From Arthrobacter sp. U41 (GTDB taxonomy: Bacteria; Actinomycetota; Actinomycetes; Actinomycetales; Micrococcaceae), in contig NZ_CP015732.1 in assembly GCF_001750145.1 (NCBI RefSeq), forward strand, positions 4,092,001 to 4,156,000: DNA of 64,000 nt, written 5' to 3'. The notes beneath the pieces were generated by a model. The model was given only the letters and a program-made list of their open reading frames with translations, made no database searches and was not told where the DNA came from. This document shows positions 1-8,279 of this stretch, in pieces. Position numbers and translations under genes: made by a program. The first letter of the stretch is position 1. The number at the start of each line of letters is the position of its first letter.

Positions 1-2806
1 ACTGCAGATGTCCGGTCTCCAGGTAGGACGGCAGGAACGAGGCCAGCCCCAGGACGAAGACCGGGACGACCAGGACAAGGCGGTTGAACAACTGGAGCAG
101 GCTGAAGATGACGCGCCTGCGCGTGCTGCAGTTCGCTTCGGGAACCCGCCGGAATTGGGTACTCGTGCGTTCAGCGGGGGAACCATGCCAGCTTTCTCCG
201 TCGGGGACGGCCTGGTTTGTCTGCAGGGCCGAGGCATGTCCCAACTGGCTGTCATCCCCCATCGACGTGCCGATGTCGAAAGTGGTCTTCTCCGAGACAA
301 GAACGTTCCGGCCGAACGTCACCGGACCCTTCTCGAGGACACCCGGGCGCGCCCGGTAGCAGAGGAAGAAGGAGTTCTTATGGATGACGGTGTTCTCGCC
401 GATGGTGAGCAGGTCCGTGCACACCGGCACTGTCCGGGAGAAGATCACCACACCCTTTCCGATTTTTGCCCCCAGCATCCGCAGGTACACCACGTAGAGC
501 GGTGAGCCCGCAAACAGCACGAGCGGGTTAGCCCGCGTCAGGGTCTTGACTGCCCAGAACCGGACGTAGTCCAGGCTCCATATTTGAATCAGCCCCGGCT
601 TCCACCGCCCCACCAGGACCCATTTCGCGAGGACCGGGGTCAGGGAAAGCACCACGAAGGTGGCGGCGCCGAAGCCCACGGACCGCAGCCACATGTCAAT
701 GGGCGAGGTTCCCCCGGACGCCCATAAGAAGCCGAAAACCAGCAGCCAGGCGGCATACATCGTGTAGCCCAGGAAGACCAGCAACTGGATGGTCCCGCAG
801 AGAAAGTACTGGAAGGAGCTGGCACGGGGCAGTGATGGCGGGGGCACCAGGTCAGCCGACGGCCCCGCCGGTACCAGTTCAGCTTCAATGCCCCTGGCTT
901 CGAGACACTCGGCAAGCTGCCGCACCGTTGGGTGCTTGTAGACGTCCTGCATGGCCGCTGACGGCAGCCCGGTTTCTTTTCTGACACGGGCGCAGAAATG
1001 GGCCATCAGCAACGAGTCGGCGCCCAGGTCGTTGAAGAAATGCGCGTCCGTGGACACTTTCTCCAGTCCCAGCACGGCACCCAACTGCTCCGCCAGGGCC
1101 TTCTCGGACTCCGTGGCCGGGGCGGTGTAGGACCCGTTGCCCGCCAGGCTCAGCCTGTGCGTCGGCTGGGGTAAACGCTTCCGGTCCACTTTTCCGCTGG
1201 CCATCATGGGCATGGACTCAAGCTGTTCGAAATAGCCCGGAACCATATATCCTGGAAGCCGGGTGCGGAGCATCTGGCGGATTTCACGGGCATCGATGCT
1301 CACTACGTCCTTGCGGAGGGTGTAGTAGGCGGCCAGTTCGACCGATCCGCGCTCCGGCTCAAAGGTCTGAACCACTGCCTGCGCGATCCCCGGAAGCTGC
1401 AGCAGGAACGACTCAATTTCGGTCAGTTCGATACGGTACCCGCGTATTTTGACTTGTGTGTCGATCCGCCCGAAGTACTCGATCTCCCCCGCCGCATTGA
1501 TCCGCCCCAGGTCCCCCGTGCGGTAAATCCGGCCGGAGGGATTGTTTCCGATCCCGAGGAAATCCGGAATGAACGCCCGCTCAGTCAGATCCGGTCGGTT
1601 GACATAACCCCGGGCCAGGCCCACGCCGGCGAGTCCGATTTCCCCCGATTCCCCGGATGGCAAGGCCCGGGAATCATCAGGGTCCAGAATGACAGCCGAG
1701 TAGGTGGGCAGCGGCACTCCCAGCGACACCGGGCTGTCGGGGTCAAGGACGGCCCACGTGGCCGTGACGGTCGCCTCGGTGGGCCCGTAGACGTTCAGGA
1801 AGCGACGGCCGGGGCGGTGCCAGCGGGTGACCAGATCCCGGGGGCACGCCTCCCCGGAGACCAGCAGGAACCGCAGGCCTGGCAGGTCTTCGTCAAGGGT
1901 CGCCAGGAGTGTCGGTACGCAGCAAAGGGCTGTGATGCTCTTTTCCTGCAGGTACTCAGCAAGCTCGGCACCCAGCAGGCTGGGTCCGCTCGGCTTGGGC
2001 ACCAAGGTGGCCCCTGCCAGCCAGGAGACCCAGATTTCCTCCACCGAGAAATCAAAGGCGATCGTCATCCCCTGGTAAACCCGGTCCGCTGACCCGATGC
2101 CATAATGTTCGGACGCGACACGGACAAAATTGCAGATACTGGCCTGCTCCACGGCCACGCCCTTCGGCCGGCCGGTGGTACCCGAGGTGTAAATAATGTA
2201 GGCCAGTTCATCGGTTGCCCCGCCCAGCTCCGCACCGTTCATTCGGTCGGGGTCTTCCGCGTCGACGTGCGGCTGCGCATGGTCAAGGCACACCGTCTGG
2301 GCGGCGACTTCAGGCAGCAGGTCCTTCAGATGTGACAGGGACAGAACCATGGCCACATCGGCGTCTTCAACGATGTATTTGAGTCGGTCCGGGGGGAACC
2401 CCGGATCCAGGGGCACATAGGCGGCGTGGATTTTAAGCGTCGCCAGCATCGCCACGTAGGCACGCCACGGCTGATCGAACAGCAGCGCGATGCGGTCCCC
2501 GGGCCGGGCCCCGCAGGCCAGGAGGTGGCGGGCCAGTTGATTCGCCCGTCCATCCAGCTCCTGATAGCTCAAAATAACGTCACCGGCGTCGACCGCAATC
2601 TGGGCACCACGTCCATCGTTTCGCAACCTGTCACAGCGGTCCTCGAATAGCTGTTCCAGCCGTTCGCCCTGCTGCCAGCGGGCGGCCTGGTCCGGGGCGG
2701 CCGACGTCAGGATCGTTCCCTCCGTTGCCCCGCCGTCGGTCGAGATCTTGCCGCGCAACTCAGCGGGGGCGGTGATGCCACTATGGACCTTCACCTTTTT
2801 ACTCAT
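1..2806 (-). CDS. Pls/PosA-type non-ribosomal peptide synthetase (partial, C-terminus outside window)
   Basis: The frame enters from the left edge, so about 935 N-terminal residues are present and the C-terminus is missing. Seen in order: an adenylation domain (A3 TSGTTGRPKG near residue 205, A4 FDFSVEE near 252, A5 YGPTEATV near 340, A10 SGKVDRKRLP near 535), a carrier domain with the phosphopantetheine serine in LGADSL near 596, then hydrophobic segments (about 655-735) and an acyltransferase-like region. There is no standard condensation or thioesterase domain. This A-carrier-membrane layout is that of the Pls/PosA family, whose founder joins lysines into epsilon-poly-lysine at the membrane. 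Start ATG has GAAGGA eight bases upstream. The upstream genes ectB and aspartate kinase supply diaminobutyrate, so this is probably the amino acid activated. The family call is firm; the product is inference. Confidence 0.85.
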   Translation of the reverse strand, partial: MSKKVKVHSGITAPAELRGKISTDGGATEGTILTSAAPDQAARWQQGERLEQLFEDRCDRLRNDGRGAQIAVDAGDVILSYQELDGRANQLARHLLACGARPGDRIALLFDQPWRAYVAMLATLKIHAAYVPLDPGFPPDRLKYIVEDADVAMVLSLSHLKDLLPEVAAQTVCLDHAQPHVDAEDPDRMNGAELGGATDELAYIIYTSGTTGRPKGVAVEQASICNFVRVASEHYGIGSADRVYQGMTIAFDFSVEEIWVSWLAGATLVPKPSGPSLLGAELAEYLQEKSITALCCVPTLLATLDEDLPGLRFLLVSGEACPRDLVTRWHRPGRRFLNVYGPTEATVTATWAVLDPDSPVSLGVPLPTYSAVILDPDDSRALPSGESGEIGLAGVGLARGYVNRPDLTERAFIPDFLGIGNNPSGRIYRTGDLGRINAAGEIEYFGRIDTQVKIRGYRIELTEIESFLLQLPGIAQAVVQTFEPERGSVELAAYYTLRKDVVSIDAREIRQMLRTRLPGYMVPGYFEQLESMPMMASGKVDRKRLPQPTHRLSLAGNGSYTAPATESEKALAEQLGAVLGLEKVSTDAHFFNDLGADSLLMAHFCARVRKETGLPSAAMQDVYKHPTVRQLAECLEARGIEAELVPAGPSADLVPPPSLPRASSFQYFLCGTIQLLVFLGYTMYAAWLLVFGFLWASGGTSPIDMWLRSVGFGAATFVVLSLTPVLAKWVLVGRWKPGLIQIWSLDYVRFWAVKTLTRANPLVLFAGSPLYVVYLRMLGAKIGKGVVIFSRTVPVCTDLLTIGENTVIHKNSFFLCYRARPGVLEKGPVTFGRNVLVSEKTTFDIGTSMGDDSQLGHASALQTNQAVPDGESWHGSPAERTSTQFRRVPEANCSTRRRVIFSLLQLFNRLVLVVPVFVLGLASFLPSYLETGHLQ

Positions 2807-2887
2807 GGATTGCTTCCTTCGCATGAAGTGACGTGTGGCGGACGGTTGCTGATGTCATCGACGGCTCCGAACGGGCGGCGGTGTCAT

Positions 2888-4327
2888 TCACGAGATGATC
2901 CGGGAGTGCAGCGAGCCGCCCCGCGAGGCAGGGCTCGGCGCCAAACCCCGGAGGCCGTGGCCCCAGCGGATGTCGCCGCCCGGGTCCCGGCCGTGGGCCG
3001 TCGGTGAGCCTGACTGTGCCGTCTCCCCCGCCGCCGGGGCCATGCCGAACGCCAGCCGGACGGCGCGCTCGGCATCATCGATCCGCCCGGCGCGGGTGAT
3101 GGCCGCGACATAGGTCTCCGATATTTCGACCAAATCGACTTCGATACCGGCTTCCGACAGGGTCCACAGGAAGGTGCAGACGACGTCCGGCGAGGACCGC
3201 ATGCCCACGCCGGTGACTGAGACCCTGCCGACTTCACCGCGGTGCTGCAGTGCCTGGAAACCTATGGTCGCTTGGGCAGCACCCAGCACCGCGAGGGCGG
3301 GAGACGCCTCCGGTGCCGGGATGATCAGGGCAACGTCGGAACGCGTGGAGCCTGTGCCTGCCGCGCTTTGGACGATTGTCTGGACGTTCACCCCTGAACG
3401 CGAAAGCACCTGGAACAGACGCGCCATGCTGTCGGGTTCGTCGGGAACTCCGACAACGATGACCTTCGCCGCCGAGTTCACGCCACCCACGCCGGTCACG
3501 ACAGGTTGTTCCCTCACCGGTTTCCGGAACGGGTGGCGGTCAAGTCCAGGCAGGATCAGCGTTCCCGGCGCGGGCACGAATGAGGACCGGACATGGATCG
3601 GAATGCCGAATCGGCGGGCGTATTCAACACACCTCAGGTGCAGCACCTTGCACCCGGAGGCCGCGAACTCCAGCATGACCTCGCTTGAGAGGACGCCGAT
3701 TTTGCGGGCCTTCGGGACAATTCGCGGGTCCGCGGTGTAGACACCGTCCACATCCGTGAAAATCTCGCAGATGCTGGCGCCGAGTGCCGCGGCCAGCGCA
3801 ACTGCGGTGAGGTCTGAGCCACCCCGGCCGAGGGTGGTTACCCTCTTGCCCTTCCTGGTTCTTCCCTGAAAGCCCGCAACAATCGGAGTTTCTCCACGGG
3901 CCAGGGCGGTGCGGATGCGGTCGGGCCGGACGTCAGTGATCTGGGCTTTGCCGTGGACGCTGTCGGTGATGAGGCCCGCCATGCTGCCGGTGAAGGTGAC
4001 GGGCGTCTGGCCAAGATCTGCCAAGGCGATGGCCAGCAGTGCCGACGACACGAGTTCGCCGGTGCTCAGCAGGGCGTCGAGGTCGCTGGGACGCGGTCGG
4101 CGTGAGACTTCGGCGGCCAGATCGCACAGTTCATCGGTGGTGTCGCCCATGGCGGAGACAACCGCCACGACCTGGTACCCGTTCTCCCGGGTCATGGCGA
4201 TCCGCTGGGCCGCGCGGAGGATGCCGGAGGGATCCGCGAGGGATGAGCCCCCGAACTTTTGCACGATGACGCTCCCCCGGGGAGTCGTCCGGTCCCTTTC
4301 GTCTAGCACGACCCAAGGCCTAACCAT
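2888..4327 (-). CDS. lysC: aspartate kinase, divergent regulatory domain
   Basis: Phosphorylates L-aspartate, the first step towards aspartate semialdehyde. The N-terminus carries the kinase signature VQKFGGSSLADP, followed by FQGRTRKGKRVTTLGRGGSD and the ITDVDGVY-like block (FTDVDGVYTADPR). The C-terminal third is a pair of ACT domains, but the usual M(R/K)SxPGV and TSEIxISV segments read MRSSPDV and ISETYVAAI, so allosteric control may differ from a housekeeping enzyme. A low-complexity tail of about 45 residues follows the ACT region. It lies 21 bp behind ectB and 81 bp before the peptide synthetase, all on one strand, so it is probably a pathway-dedicated copy feeding EctB. The start is the upstream ATG; a start nearer the FGG motif is possible. 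Confidence 0.9.
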   Translation of the reverse strand: MVRPWVVLDERDRTTPRGSVIVQKFGGSSLADPSGILRAAQRIAMTRENGYQVVAVVSAMGDTTDELCDLAAEVSRRPRPSDLDALLSTGELVSSALLAIALADLGQTPVTFTGSMAGLITDSVHGKAQITDVRPDRIRTALARGETPIVAGFQGRTRKGKRVTTLGRGGSDLTAVALAAALGASICEIFTDVDGVYTADPRIVPKARKIGVLSSEVMLEFAASGCKVLHLRCVEYARRFGIPIHVRSSFVPAPGTLILPGLDRHPFRKPVREQPVVTGVGGVNSAAKVIVVGVPDEPDSMARLFQVLSRSGVNVQTIVQSAAGTGSTRSDVALIIPAPEASPALAVLGAAQATIGFQALQHRGEVGRVSVTGVGMRSSPDVVCTFLWTLSEAGIEVDLVEISETYVAAITRAGRIDDAERAVRLAFGMAPAAGETAQSGSPTAHGRDPGGDIRWGHGLRGLAPSPASRGGSLHSRIIS

Positions 4328-4348
4328 CCAGCCGGGGATGTCCTATCC

Positions 4349-5623
4349 CTAGGCAATGGACTTCACCGTGACCTTCCCGCCGGTCACCGACTCGGCTGCG
4401 TCTGCAAGGATGTCGAGTCCCTTCAGCAACTGTGCGGGGTCTATCGTCAGCGCCGGCATCGTCTTGATGACTTCGCCCTCCGGCCCCGAGGTTTCCGCCA
4501 GCAGGCCCCGGGCGAACGACTCGGCCGCGATTTTCCCTGCCATCTGGTGGTCGGGGTAGTAAATGCCCGCTAGCAGTCCCCGGCCCCGGACGAGCGCACC
4601 TTCAGTACCCGCTGCGATCTGGGTGAGGCCCTCGTGCAGTTGCGAAGCGAGCCCCGCGACTTTCGATTCAAACCTCCGGTCCTGCCAATAGAGCTCCAGG
4701 GCAGCAGTTCCGGTCACGAACGCCGGGTTGTGTCCCCGGAAGGTCCCGTTGTGCTCCCCCGGCTTCCAGATGTCCAGTTCCGGTTTGAAGAGTGTGAGGG
4801 ACAGGGGCAGTCCGAACCCTGAAATGGACTTGGAGAGGCAGACAATATCGGGGGTTATGCCGGCATCTTCAAAACTGAAGAATGTTCCCGTGCGCCCGCA
4901 TCCGGCCTGCACATCGTCAACGATGAGCAGGATGCCGTGTTGGTGGCAGAGTTCTGCAAGGCCCCGCAGCCAGGAGGGCCGGGCGGCTCTGAGGCCGCCC
5001 TCGCCCTGTACGGTTTCCACGATGACCGCGGCGGGTTTGTCGACGCCTGAGCCGCTGTCCTCCAGCGCATGGCGAAGCCACAGGAAGTCGGCTGGCTGGC
5101 CGTCAAGGAATCCGTCATAGGGCATGCTGGAGGTGTTCGTGAGGGGAACCCCGGCGCCCTCCCGTTTCATTGAATTGCCTGTCACTGACAAAGAGCCCAG
5201 CGTCATTCCGTGGAACGCATTCGTAAAGCTGATGATGTGTGTCCGGCCGGTGACCTTTCGGGCCAGCTTCAAGGCCGCTTCCACCGAGTTTGTACCCGTG
5301 GGACCGGGAAACATGACTTTGTAGTCAAAGTCCCGGGGCTTCAGGATCAGCTCATGGAAAGTTTCCAGGAAGCGTCGTTTAGCCACCGTTTTCATATCGA
5401 GGGAATGAACTATTGCACCGGAGAGAAGATATTCCACGAGCGGTCGGAGCAGCTCCGGGTTGTTGTGTCCGTAGTTCAGCGCTCCGGCGCCGGAGAAGAA
5501 ATCAAGAAAGTCCCTGCCGTCCTCGCTGTAGAGAGTACTGCCTGCAGCGCGGTCAAAGACCGTGTCCCAGGTGCGGCAGTAAGTGCGGACTTCCGACTCC
5601 AGATTTTCAAAGATATCCATCAT
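4349..5623 (-). CDS. ectB: diaminobutyrate--2-oxoglutarate transaminase (EctB-like)
   Basis: Class III PLP aminotransferase converting L-aspartate 4-semialdehyde and glutamate to L-2,4-diaminobutyrate and 2-oxoglutarate. Visible family features are the N-terminus [31 protein letters not shown], the nucleotide/PLP segment [35 protein letters not shown] and the PLP lysine in [10 protein letters not shown]. From this start the protein is 424 residues, the usual EctB length; the longer frame upstream lacks family sequence. The ATG pair at 5618-5623 has GAAGGAAAG just upstream. EctA and EctC are not adjacent, unlike ectoine operons; instead aspartate kinase and a Pls-like synthetase follow, so diaminobutyrate is more likely a building block than an ectoine intermediate. 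Confidence 0.92.
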
Positions 5624-5937
5624 TAGCTTTCCTTCGTTCTTTCCCCAGCCTTGGAGCGGCTCAGACATCCGGAAAACGGTCACGGCGAGCGAATTGCTGC
5701 GGCGCAAAGTCGCAAACAGGAAGTGACCGGGTAACTCCAAGCTATGTAACCCCGGTAGCTTCGGGACCCGTAGGCCGTACTCGAAAACTCGCCGCCCATC
5801 CGACCCGGTCTACTTAGCTGTACTCACACAGGAGGGGTGTTCACTCAAGTAGTCAGCATTCCGCCGCAGCAGCCCGCCGGCGGGCCGCCCCGGACGGCAC
5901 ACCGAAGGGGCTGCTGCGGTTATCGAGAAGCGGCTGT
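5624..5937. other. intergenic region holding the promoter side of the ectB operon
   Basis: A 314-bp gap between the M28 peptidase stop and the ectB start, both genes on the minus strand. Apart from the hairpin at 5864-5919 no feature is clear. The base composition near ectB is visibly less GC-rich than the surroundings. No convincing -35/-10 pair was found by eye, although the ectB promoter must lie here unless the operon is read through. Confidence 0.5.
5864..5919 (-). terminator. hairpin behind the M28 peptidase gene
   Basis: Perfect 12-bp arms CCGCAGCAGCCC and GGGCTGCTGCGG flank a GC-rich loop of 32 bases, 19 bp beyond the peptidase stop. There is no U-tract, so this is a probable but not classical terminator. 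Confidence 0.5.
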
Positions 5938-6954
5938 TTAGCCCCGCGGGGCCAGCGCGTACGTGGCGGTGGCGTAGGCCAGGGCGGCGGACATTTCCTT
6001 GAGCAGGTCCGGGTTGGTGTTCTTGATGGTGTCGCAGGCCCGGTGGTAGCAGGAATCGAGGTCCTTGCCGGCCGTGCCGCCGTAGGACTGCACCTGGGCC
6101 CTGGTCTTGGTTTCCACGTCGCCGCTGAACAGTCCGCCGCCGGGGATGCCGGCCTGCAGGAACGGCTCGTAATCGGACCCGCCGTCAAACGGCGTGGTTT
6201 CGGCCGGCAGCGAGTTCTCCTCGAAGAAACGGAAAAACACGTCTTCGATCTGCTTCGAACCCGCCGGGCCGGCCTGCTCGAAATCGGACCCGTCGCCGTC
6301 GTGGATGGACCGCACCCCGTTCGGGGAGGCCAGCATGTCCACGTTCAGGTTCGCCGCGGTCCGGGCCTTCTCGGCCCGGCTCAGCTCATCGACATAGTGC
6401 TGGGATCCGTACAGGCCGTCCTCTTCAGCGCCCCAGAACGCAAACCGCACCCGGTTCGCCGGGGTGATCCCGTTCTCCTTCATCCAGCGGGCAATCTCAA
6501 TCATGGCCGCGACCCCGCTGGCGTTGTCATTGATCCCCGGCCCCTCGCGCACCGAATCCAGGTGCCCGCCCACCACCACGGTGTTCTCGGCGCTGCCCCC
6601 GGTATCGGCGAGGATGTTGAAGCTCTCCACCTGCTTCCGGTTCTTGCCCTCGCCCCGGAAGGAAAAGGCCTGCCGGACCGGGTTGTACCCGGCCGCGCGC
6701 AACTGCTCCTCAACGTACCGGGCGGATTCCTCATAACCGGAGGTCCCCGACGCCCGGTTCCCATCATTGTCATCAGCGATGCGCTGCAGCGCCTCCAGGT
6801 GATCCACCATGCCCCGGCCCTTGAACTCCGCCAGGACCGCCCGTGCGTCCACCCCGCCCACCGGCTCCAGCCGCGGAGCCGTGCATCCCGGGAGGACGAG
6901 GCTGATCGTCAGCAAGATCGCGGCGGCCGCTGCGGTTCCAAGCCTTTTCATCAT
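5938..6954 (-). CDS. secreted M28-family zinc aminopeptidase lipoprotein
   Basis: Predicted extracytoplasmic metallopeptidase of 338 residues. The N-terminus is a lipoprotein signal peptide ending in LPGC. The M28 zinc site is visible: GGHLDSV with its first ligand, GINDNASGVAAM with the bridging aspartate, and FWGAEEDGLYGS with the catalytic and ligand glutamates, followed by a conserved region near FDGGSDYEPFLQAGIPGG. It is related to bacterial leucyl aminopeptidases and aminopeptidase S. The start ATG has GGAGGA about nine bases upstream; a second ATG follows immediately. It stands alone between divergently and tandemly placed neighbours. Likely role: trimming of external peptides for nutrition. 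Confidence 0.9.
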   Translation of the reverse strand: MMKRLGTAAAAAILLTISLVLPGCTAPRLEPVGGVDARAVLAEFKGRGMVDHLEALQRIADDNDGNRASGTSGYEESARYVEEQLRAAGYNPVRQAFSFRGEGKNRKQVESFNILADTGGSAENTVVVGGHLDSVREGPGINDNASGVAAMIEIARWMKENGITPANRVRFAFWGAEEDGLYGSQHYVDELSRAEKARTAANLNVDMLASPNGVRSIHDGDGSDFEQAGPAGSKQIEDVFFRFFEENSLPAETTPFDGGSDYEPFLQAGIPGGGLFSGDVETKTRAQVQSYGGTAGKDLDSCYHRACDTIKNTNPDLLKEMSAALAYATATYALAPRG

Positions 6955-7075
6955 GTGGGCATCCTCCAGGCTATGAAGATAACGCCCTGGCCTCTTCTGA
7001 GAAAGTGCCGGCCCTCCCCTACCGGAGGAACACCCGTGGGGAATATTCGGACGTGGCGGACGTTATACCGCTCAA

Positions 7076-7106
7076 TAGATGCAAATGCATCTAAATCGGC
7101 TATAGT
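7076..7106 (+). promoter_or_regulatory. MarR-type operator with adjacent -10 box
   Basis: A perfect inverted repeat, TAGATGCA-AA-TGCATCTA (7076-7093), lies directly upstream of a TATAGT -10-like hexamer (7101-7106). It is 42 bp in front of the LLM oxidoreductase gene, which is cotranscribed with a marR gene. The position suits autorepression by that MarR protein (inference). Confidence 0.6.
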
Positions 7107-7148
7107 AGAAGCAGCTCCCGGAAAAGTCCGGCCACGGAAGGGCATATC

Positions 7149-8279
7149 ATGCAGATCGGCGTCTTCAGCGTCAGCGACATCACCACCGACCCCACCACGG
7201 GTCGTACCCCCACGGAGCACGAACGCATCAAGGCGTCCGTGGCGATCGCCAAAAAGGTCGAGGAAATCGGCATGGATGTCTACGCCATTGGCGAGCACCA
7301 TAACCGGCCTTTCTTCTCTTCCTCCCCCACCACGACTCTGGCCTACATTGCCGCGCAGACAGAGCGCATCATCCTGTCCACCGCCACGACGCTGATCACC
7401 ACCAATGACCCGGTGAAGATCGCCGAGGACTTCGCCATGCTCCAGCACCTGGCCGACGGCCGCGTGGACCTGGTCCTGGGCCGCGGCAACACCGCCCCCG
7501 TCTACCCCTGGTTCGGCAAGAACATCCAGGACGGAATCGAACTCGCGATCGAGAACTACAGCCTGCTGCGCCGCCTCTGGGACGAGGACACCGTCAACTG
7601 GTCCGGCAAGCACCGCACACCGCTGCAGAACTTCACCTCCACTCCGCGCCCGCTCGACGGCGTAGCCCCCTTCGTCTGGCACGGTTCGATCCGTACGCCG
7701 CAGATCGCGGAAGTCGCTGCCTACTATGGCGACGGATTCTTCGCCAACAACATCTTCTGGCCCAAGGAGCACTACCAGCAACTGATCGGCCTCTACCGCG
7801 AACGCTACGAGCACTACGGCCACGGCCAGGCCGACCAGGCAATCGTGGGCCTCGGCGGACAGTTCTTCATGCGCAAGAACTCCCAGGACGCCGTCAAGGA
7901 GTTCCGGCCCTACTTCGACAACGCCCCGGTCTACGGCCACGGCCCGTCGCTCGAGGACTTCACCTCGCAGACCCCGCTGACCGTCGGCAGCCCGCAGGAA
8001 GTCATCGAAAAGACGCTGAGCTTCCGTGAGTACTTCGGCGATTACCAGCGGCAGCTGTTCCTGATCGACCACGCGGGCCTGCCGCTGAAGACCGTGCTGG
8101 AACAGCTGGACCTGTTCGGCGAGGAGGTCCTGCCGGTCCTGCGCAAGGAATATGCCGAGAAGACCCCGGCCCATGTCCCCGAACCGCCCACCCACGCCGG
8201 ACGTGTCGCCGCGTCCCTGGCCGCAGCCGGGCAGTCCTCCGGCGAAACCGCCCGCACCGCCGGCACGAAGAGCGTGTGA
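7149..8279 (+). CDS. LLM-class flavin-dependent oxidoreductase
   Basis: Bacterial luciferase-like TIM-barrel flavoprotein of 376 residues, of the FMN-dependent CE1758-like group. Recognisable stretches are MQIGVFSVSDIT at the N-terminus, YAIGEHHNRPFFSSSP, the conserved ISTATTLITTNDPVKIAEDFAMLQHLADGRVDLVLGRG-type block, and TVGSPQEVIEKTL near the C-terminus. The tail after about residue 340 is alanine/proline rich and not conserved. The start has GGAAGG upstream. Its stop overlaps the start of the marR gene by one base (TGATG), so the two are translationally coupled. The substrate cannot be read from the sequence; the MarR partner suggests induction by a small, perhaps aromatic or oxidised, molecule. 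Confidence 0.88.
   Translation: MQIGVFSVSDITTDPTTGRTPTEHERIKASVAIAKKVEEIGMDVYAIGEHHNRPFFSSSPTTTLAYIAAQTERIILSTATTLITTNDPVKIAEDFAMLQHLADGRVDLVLGRGNTAPVYPWFGKNIQDGIELAIENYSLLRRLWDEDTVNWSGKHRTPLQNFTSTPRPLDGVAPFVWHGSIRTPQIAEVAAYYGDGFFANNIFWPKEHYQQLIGLYRERYEHYGHGQADQAIVGLGGQFFMRKNSQDAVKEFRPYFDNAPVYGHGPSLEDFTSQTPLTVGSPQEVIEKTLSFREYFGDYQRQLFLIDHAGLPLKTVLEQLDLFGEEVLPVLRKEYAEKTPAHVPEPPTHAGRVAASLAAAGQSSGETARTAGTKSV

Follow-up and report, generated by a model that had tools for sequence, protein, structure and literature searches.

We analyzed a window of 64,000 nucleotides from the genome of Arthrobacter sp. U41 (C1:4092001-4156000; features are given in window positions unless C1 is stated). At its left end lie an aminotransferase gene, ectB, an aspartate kinase gene, ask, and the gene of a synthetase of the Pls/PosA type. 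The three are consecutive and are transcribed from the minus strand in the order ectB, ask, synthetase. They most probably constitute a three-gene operon for gamma-poly-L-2,4-diaminobutyric acid, a polymer of diaminobutyrate (Dab). The features on which this reading depends are as follows (aa, amino acids).

4349..5623, minus strand: ectB/dat, L-2,4-diaminobutyrate--2-oxoglutarate aminotransferase of the EctB type, 424 aa (TIGR02407, PRK09264)
2888..4327, minus strand: ask, aspartate kinase, 479 aa (AA_kinase and ACT domains)
1..2806, minus strand: N-terminal part of the Pls-type single-module synthetase, 1413 or 1419 aa in full (TIGR02353, AMP-binding, PP-binding)
1160..2656 (bounds approximate), minus strand: adenylation domain of the synthetase (AMP-binding match)
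902..1099, minus strand: peptidyl carrier domain of the synthetase (PF00550, 41.4 bits)
1..802, minus strand: beginning of the Pls/PosA terminal region, most of which lies left of the window (TIGR02353, residues 675-1367; AlphaFold2 model)

Gene order and domain matches agreed on this arrangement, which a preliminary description of the DNA had already proposed. EctB scored 629 bits against TIGR02407 (cut-off 552.2) and 642.2 bits against PRK09264 (cut-off 438); its gene starts with the ATG at 5623, preceded by GAAGGAAAG, and 6 further, weaker matches to it (28-35% identical) occur in the same genome. The gap between ectB and ask is 21 bases and that between ask and the synthetase is 81 bases, counted to a start at 2806. 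This start (1413 aa) has a better ribosome site, GAAGGAAG, and is more likely than the first ATG at 2824 (1419 aa); the database protein P0002, 99% identical to the synthetase, is also 1413 aa long. The synthetase gene crosses the left window edge and ends at C1:4090565, and the gene past this end, in convergent orientation, encodes an AcrB-type transporter. A search of 4200-7200 for sigma-70-type promoters found 0, with 0.4 expected by chance. The G+C content of the cluster stretch is 62-65%, below that of most of the window. The same order of the trio is also present in four other Arthrobacter loci (L026, L027, L043, and L047).

The synthetase had been described as a membrane-bound adenylating enzyme without a condensation domain, and on this Pfam and TIGR02353 agreed. 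The full-length protein aligned with 695 of the 695 positions of TIGR02353 at 691.7 bits (cut-off 423.1; NCBIfam). The Pfam scan matched AMP-binding, AMP-binding_C, and PP-binding and found neither a condensation nor a thioesterase domain. By these matches the protein belongs to the cationic homopoly(amino acid) synthetases of the Pls/PosA family. Extending the reading leftward to the C-terminus gave a complete Pls/PosA region and no different fold, both by TIGR02353 and in a model of the C-terminal 775 residues that AlphaFold2 built on 17 aligned sequences (mean pLDDT 83.3, pTM 0.84). Three times over, a long helical hairpin in the model is followed by a strand-rich stretch (helix pairs 26-59/64-93, 257-292/301-334, and 505-551/553-578). 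The layout given for Pls is one of six transmembrane segments and three tandem domains (PMC8117764; this and the other papers are cited from the parts of their texts that were available). The model supports a full terminal region that would be laid out as in Pls. Fewer clear peaks were seen in a simple hydropathy scan. In four relatives that are 60-62% identical (P0074, P0075, P0076, and P0079) the polypeptide also includes a phosphopantetheinyl transferase domain, and those synthetases may activate themselves.

Nine of the 10 classical pocket positions of the adenylation domain were mapped onto an alignment of 80 relatives, by motif positions that we presume to be the standard ones. The U41 synthetase reads D F E C L S V V T at residues 258, 259, 262, 301, 321, 323, 345, 353, and 354 (1419-aa reading). 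As a check on the mapping, the synthetase of L099 reads DMEHNGTVT where DMEHNGTVSK is published for PosA; 8 of 9 positions agree and one differs. At pocket position 2, Phe has been reported in synthetases of poly-diaminopropionate (PDAP) and poly-diaminobutyrate (PDAB), Met in PosA, and Ala in Pls (PMC10522769). The U41 pocket combines Phe at position 2 with the conserved Glu, as published for the PDAP and PDAB enzymes, and the Phe points to Dab or diaminopropionate (Dap) as the monomer. Set against this rule, the adenylation domain indicated no other residue. The identity of an epsilon-polylysine synthetase was rejected, as a lysine pocket has Ala at position 2.

To relate the pocket to the neighboring genes, we used a scan of genome contigs to survey the loci of the best 80 of 573 synthetase relatives, with up to 10 kb on either side. 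An aminotransferase was counted at 33% or greater identity over at least 85% of EctB and a kinase at 35% or greater identity over at least 80%, and a pocket class was defined by Ser at position 301 (classical pocket numbering). A Dab aminotransferase was found near the synthetase in 32 of the 43 loci of this class and in none of the 37 others (Fisher p 2.7e-13, which is no true probability because the rows are related and the class was chosen afterwards). Eighteen of the 32 are of the EctB type (at least 45% identity) and 14 of the Dat type. An aspartate kinase was nearby in 14 of the 43 and in 0 of the 37; a weaker aminotransferase match, 26-29% identical, was present in 3 of the 37. A second look covered 19 places in Micrococcaceae genomes, 7 of them contigs already counted. 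All 19 had the pocket DFECLSVVT, 14 an aminotransferase match (one cut by the stretch end), and 8 a kinase. A 20th place (L153) had the pocket DFEYLGTVT and neither gene.

Two gene fusions further tie the synthetase to both Dab precursor enzymes. In Pseudonocardia sp. N23 one 2048-aa frame (L029:9764-15910) joins it to a Dat-type aminotransferase, and in P0109 an aspartate kinase domain is fused at its C-terminus. The pocket, the aminotransferase association, and the terminal region thus bear out the earlier suggestion of poly-diaminobutyrate or a short Dab peptide, and we infer that the likely product of the cluster is gamma-poly-L-diaminobutyrate.

Several observations weigh against this reading. 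Both the pocket class and the thresholds were chosen with the match lists already in view, and the rows are related to one another. Eleven of the 43 pocket-class loci lack an aminotransferase at the thresholds used. Five of these (L030, L044, L053, L072, and L074) are truncated by a contig end 0 to 7 kb away on one or both sides, and L083 has no full aminotransferase, only a kinase and a half-length match. The other five are real exceptions within the stretch examined: L024, L025, L034, and L041 have at least 8 kb on both sides, and L077 has 3.9 and 10 kb of flank. No kinase was found at 29 of the 43 loci, and no aminotransferase match at 5 of the 19 Micrococcaceae places. The producers of the characterized PldA and PddA are not among the best 80 of the 573 loci, and a relative on plasmid pTC1 (see below) has no annotated ectB or ask within 9 kb. 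The sole match to aspartate-semialdehyde dehydrogenase (Asd; C1:225457) scored 107.3 bits, below the family cut-off of 324.2. A Pls gene can, moreover, stay silent in culture (PMC8117764).

Finally, Phe at position 2 is reported for PDAP and PDAB synthetases alike (PMC10522769). It could be speculated that the enzyme makes poly-diaminopropionate or a polymer of another short diamino acid and that EctB and Ask are its neighbors for another reason. This is unlikely, as the pathway of EctB and Ask ends in Dab and not in Dap and the synthetase fusions carry Dat or Ask. The immediate neighbors are the AcrB-type transporter, ask, ectB, and an M28 peptidase; no Dap enzymes resembling cysteine synthetase or ornithine cyclodeaminase are among them, the rest of the genome not having been searched. 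No Dap pathway was recognized, by eye only, among the open reading frames that surround the synthetase at seven loci of other pocket types.

The preliminary description had stated that EctA and EctC are absent beside EctB and that ectoine is unlikely to be its purpose. Ectoine synthase (EctC, PF06339) had no match in the whole U41 genome; the same search was positive in 32 of 120 family genomes (U41 not among them) and negative in all 14 named control genomes. The statement therefore stands for EctC, while EctA was not searched, and ectoine as the purpose of EctB was rejected because EctC was not found. By sequence the enzyme falls among ectoine EctBs of the Micrococcaceae. In a tree of 48 aminotransferases (without frames over 700 aa, among them the L029 fusion and that of L045) the EctB-type and Dat-type partners were split by long, fully supported branches. 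The U41 EctB grouped with those of 6 other Arthrobacter-type clusters (support 94/87, below star level). That group sits inside a supported one (99/99) with EctBs from EctC-encoding loci of seven family genomes, to which the U41 protein is 66-75% identical. This kinship is what favors the idea that EctB and Ask serve ectoine or general aspartate-family metabolism, with the synthetase unrelated. We regard that idea as extremely improbable, given the missing ectoine synthase and a trio order that is kept in the four other Arthrobacter loci.

The four Dat-type proteins that were scanned all scored above the TIGR00709 cut-off and below that of EctB. Streptomyces and Actinokineospora clusters, where an aminotransferase was found, have this distant Dat type. 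A quick-method tree of 40 synthetases, two from U41 and 38 chosen from the 80 loci, requires 7 changes of the EctB label, at least 5 of them on well-supported branches; part of the changes are to "none", some of these from short contigs. EctB and Dat partners were mixed on this tree: L023, which has EctB, is paired with L032, which has Dat, and the group of L028, L031, L040, L042, and L084 contains both types. We read this as a probable replacement of the Dab-supplying enzyme with no change in the pocket, and a swapped aminotransferase type beside one synthetase family would be a natural pointer to the monomer. No Dab aminotransferase was found with the alphaproteobacterial synthetases (L051, L055, L063, L065, and similar), whose pocket reads DFEALGTVT or DFEALGSVT. 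On the tree these Gly-301 rows branch next to EctB-bearing rows with Ser-301, so a change of substrate may have taken place in them.

With respect to configuration, TIGR00652 found one DapF in the whole genome, at C1:2755884, far from the cluster. No PddB-like racemase, a relative of DapF, was found in the genome, other racemase families not having been searched. These results favor the L form, and a D-polymer was disfavored. Synthetase, dat, and ask are common to the published poly-D-Dab clusters (PMC8225329), and U41 might accordingly make gamma-poly-D-Dab by means of a racemase encoded elsewhere in its genome. The published racemase PddB is, however, coupled to the synthetase gene, and the only DapF of U41 is distant; the chance of this alternative is therefore slim.

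For the L-polymer, the pathway would begin with the phosphorylation of aspartate by Ask. The product would be reduced by aspartate-semialdehyde dehydrogenase, an enzyme of general metabolism assumed to be encoded elsewhere in the genome, and EctB would transaminate the semialdehyde to L-Dab. Dab would then be activated by the adenylation domain and held as a thioester on the carrier domain. The membrane half would join the residues one by one, and the polymer would be released without a thioesterase. We infer by the same reasoning that the genes form a single transcript, that the synthetase accepts L-Dab, and what the linkage, configuration, length, and role of the homopolymer would be. Sequence does not reveal chain length or branching, and the known bacterial cationic isopeptides include oligomers as well as branched polymers (PMC9606270). 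Instead of a linear homopolymer, the product might be an oligomer of a few Dab residues, a Dab peptide with a capped end, or a polymer that is branched or of mixed composition. This is not the outcome we expect, and we give it little credence: the enzyme has a single module and a single adenylation domain, the flanks that were read hold a transporter and a peptidase and no tailoring enzymes, and the characterized relatives make homopolymers (PMC8117764).

As in poly-Dab clusters of the pldA/pddA type, Ask occurs in addition to a housekeeping aspartate kinase, encoded at C1:1803698, that is 53% identical to it. In the regulatory domain the two differ at positions 279, 301, 308, 311, and 374 (Corynebacterium glutamicum numbering), which we take to be important for inhibition by lysine and threonine: M, A, S, A, and E in the cluster kinase stand against A, S, T, S, and N in the housekeeping copy. 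The kinases of other clusters differ widely at these positions, so that deregulation of the cluster kinase is only a guess. A feedback-resistant aspartate kinase has been reported from Streptomyces albulus (PMC9205021).

Upstream of ectB, by 314 bases and on the same strand, lies a peptidase gene.

5938..6954, minus strand: M28 metallopeptidase with a lipoprotein-like signal (PF04389, 165.9 bits)

Of 93 distinct loci examined, 6 have relatives of this peptidase (35-43% identical) close to the synthetase; these represent about three lineages. In L042 and L084 the M28 frames begin 81 and 9 bases behind the synthetase, on the same strand and two in tandem. In L152 the gene lies 271 bases behind the synthetase and in L150 1.7 kb behind; in L024 and L077 it is upstream, on the other strand. 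PldII, a polylysine-degrading enzyme coupled to pls, is a two-zinc metallopeptidase by homology model (PMC9223678). It is a fair guess that the M28 protein is a candidate polymer-degrading or self-protection enzyme. The case for such a role is weak in U41, because the body of the gene (5942-6881) is duplicated at L158:8890-9829, near C1:3246888 (98.6% identity, 940 bases), and no M28 gene was found in the stretch examined at the four Arthrobacter loci with the same trio. The genome contains about three M28 genes, and apart from this duplication the opening 12 kb of the window showed no similarity to L158. Of the 25 neighbor families listed as most widespread, the U41 locus has the trio, frames opposite the trio, and the M28 gene. 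A membrane protein of the HGSNAT_cat family (e.g. L138:8444-9685) also recurs near synthetases, in 10 loci from 8 genus-level groups.

The genome encodes a second Pls-type synthetase, at C1:2795064-2799113 (L012:9065-13114). Its adenylation domain matched that of the S. albulus epsilon-polylysine synthase (7wew) at 646.8 bits, and its pocket, DAESIGTVV, is of the lysine type with Ala at position 2. An M1 peptidase gene adjoins it and a 4'-phosphopantetheinyl transferase gene lies about 4 kb off. By these features the locus is a candidate epsilon-polylysine locus. In another genome (G176, L150) a cluster of the poly-Dab kind and a lysine-type synthetase (pocket DAESIGTVI) lie inside one 19-kb stretch.

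Matches to the cluster synthetase at E <= 1e-200 were found in 25 of 197 family genomes. In 15 of the 25, U41 included, the relative was at least 50% identical over most of its length, and 2 of the 12 same-genus genomes listed have such a relative. On plasmids, 49 of 72,556 records gave a match at E <= 1e-100. The best, 68% identical, is on the conjugative plasmid pTC1 of Paenarthrobacter aurescens TC1 (L165:9010-13233), where a gene annotated as a zinc metallopeptidase signature protein is close to the synthetase. The distribution, the lower G+C content of the cluster stretch, and the shared neighbor families are compatible with a mobile cassette without proving one.

A wider account can be sketched, which we put forward tentatively and consider doubtful as a whole. 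Poly-Dab synthetases would repeatedly have taken their monomer supply from two distant aminotransferase lineages, the Arthrobacter enzyme having been captured from the ectoine pathway. It would be accompanied by a kinase freed of lysine and threonine inhibition and, in some lineages including U41, by an M28 peptidase acting to break down the polymer or to shield the cell. U41 would make epsilon-polylysine as well, and thus two cationic polymers.

Few cationic amino acid homopolymers are known to us, and the compact three-gene set in Arthrobacter-type bacteria would be another source of poly-Dab. Since pocket letters and Dab supply genes go together, the pocket can serve as a sequence-based guide to probable poly-Dab synthetases within the large Pls/PosA family. 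The literature results listed held no paper on poly-Dab in Micrococcaceae, most subscription journals lying outside the search, and the producers named are Streptomyces and Streptoalloteichus strains (PMC8117764, PMC8225329).

The gene set itself is already known from published poly-Dab clusters, namely pldA with dat and ask (PMC8117764) and pddA with pddB, pddC, and pddD (PMC8225329), so the U41 cluster is another case of an established type. The pldA-dat-ask cluster of Streptomyces celluloflavus, which makes gamma-poly-L-Dab, likewise joins a Pls-type synthetase with dat and ask, and this species is reported to make epsilon-polylysine as well (PMC8117764), just as U41 also has a lysine-type Pls. 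In contrast to that cluster, U41 belongs to another family, the Micrococcaceae, and its aminotransferase is of the EctB type. In the Streptomyces relatives L032 and L033 (not S. celluloflavus itself) the aminotransferase is 38% identical, and of the Dat type by model score in L032; none was found in the Streptomyces relatives L030 and L074. The pddABCD cluster of Streptoalloteichus hindustanus, for gamma-poly-D-Dab, shares the synthetase, dat (PddC), and ask (PddD) (PMC8225329); unlike it, U41 has a single DapF homologue and no PddB-like Dab racemase was found.

Pls of S. albulus, for epsilon-poly-L-lysine (adenylation domain PDB 7wew), has the same domain layout and membrane terminal region, although it has Ala at position 2 where U41 has Phe. 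It has the peptidase partner PldII, and the available part of PMC8117764 mentions neither dat nor ask beside it. PosA of Acinetobacter baumannii, for delta-poly-L-ornithine, is of the same family, and the Asp and Glu by which it holds the two amino groups (PMC10522769) are present in U41 too, but it has Met at position 2 and ornithine as its substrate. With the ectoine operon ectABC the cluster has EctB in common; no EctC was found in the U41 genome, and Ask and the synthetase are there instead. To these systems U41 adds an EctB-type aminotransferase near the ectoine EctBs, an M28 peptidase that recurs beside some clusters, and a lysine-type Pls in the same genome.

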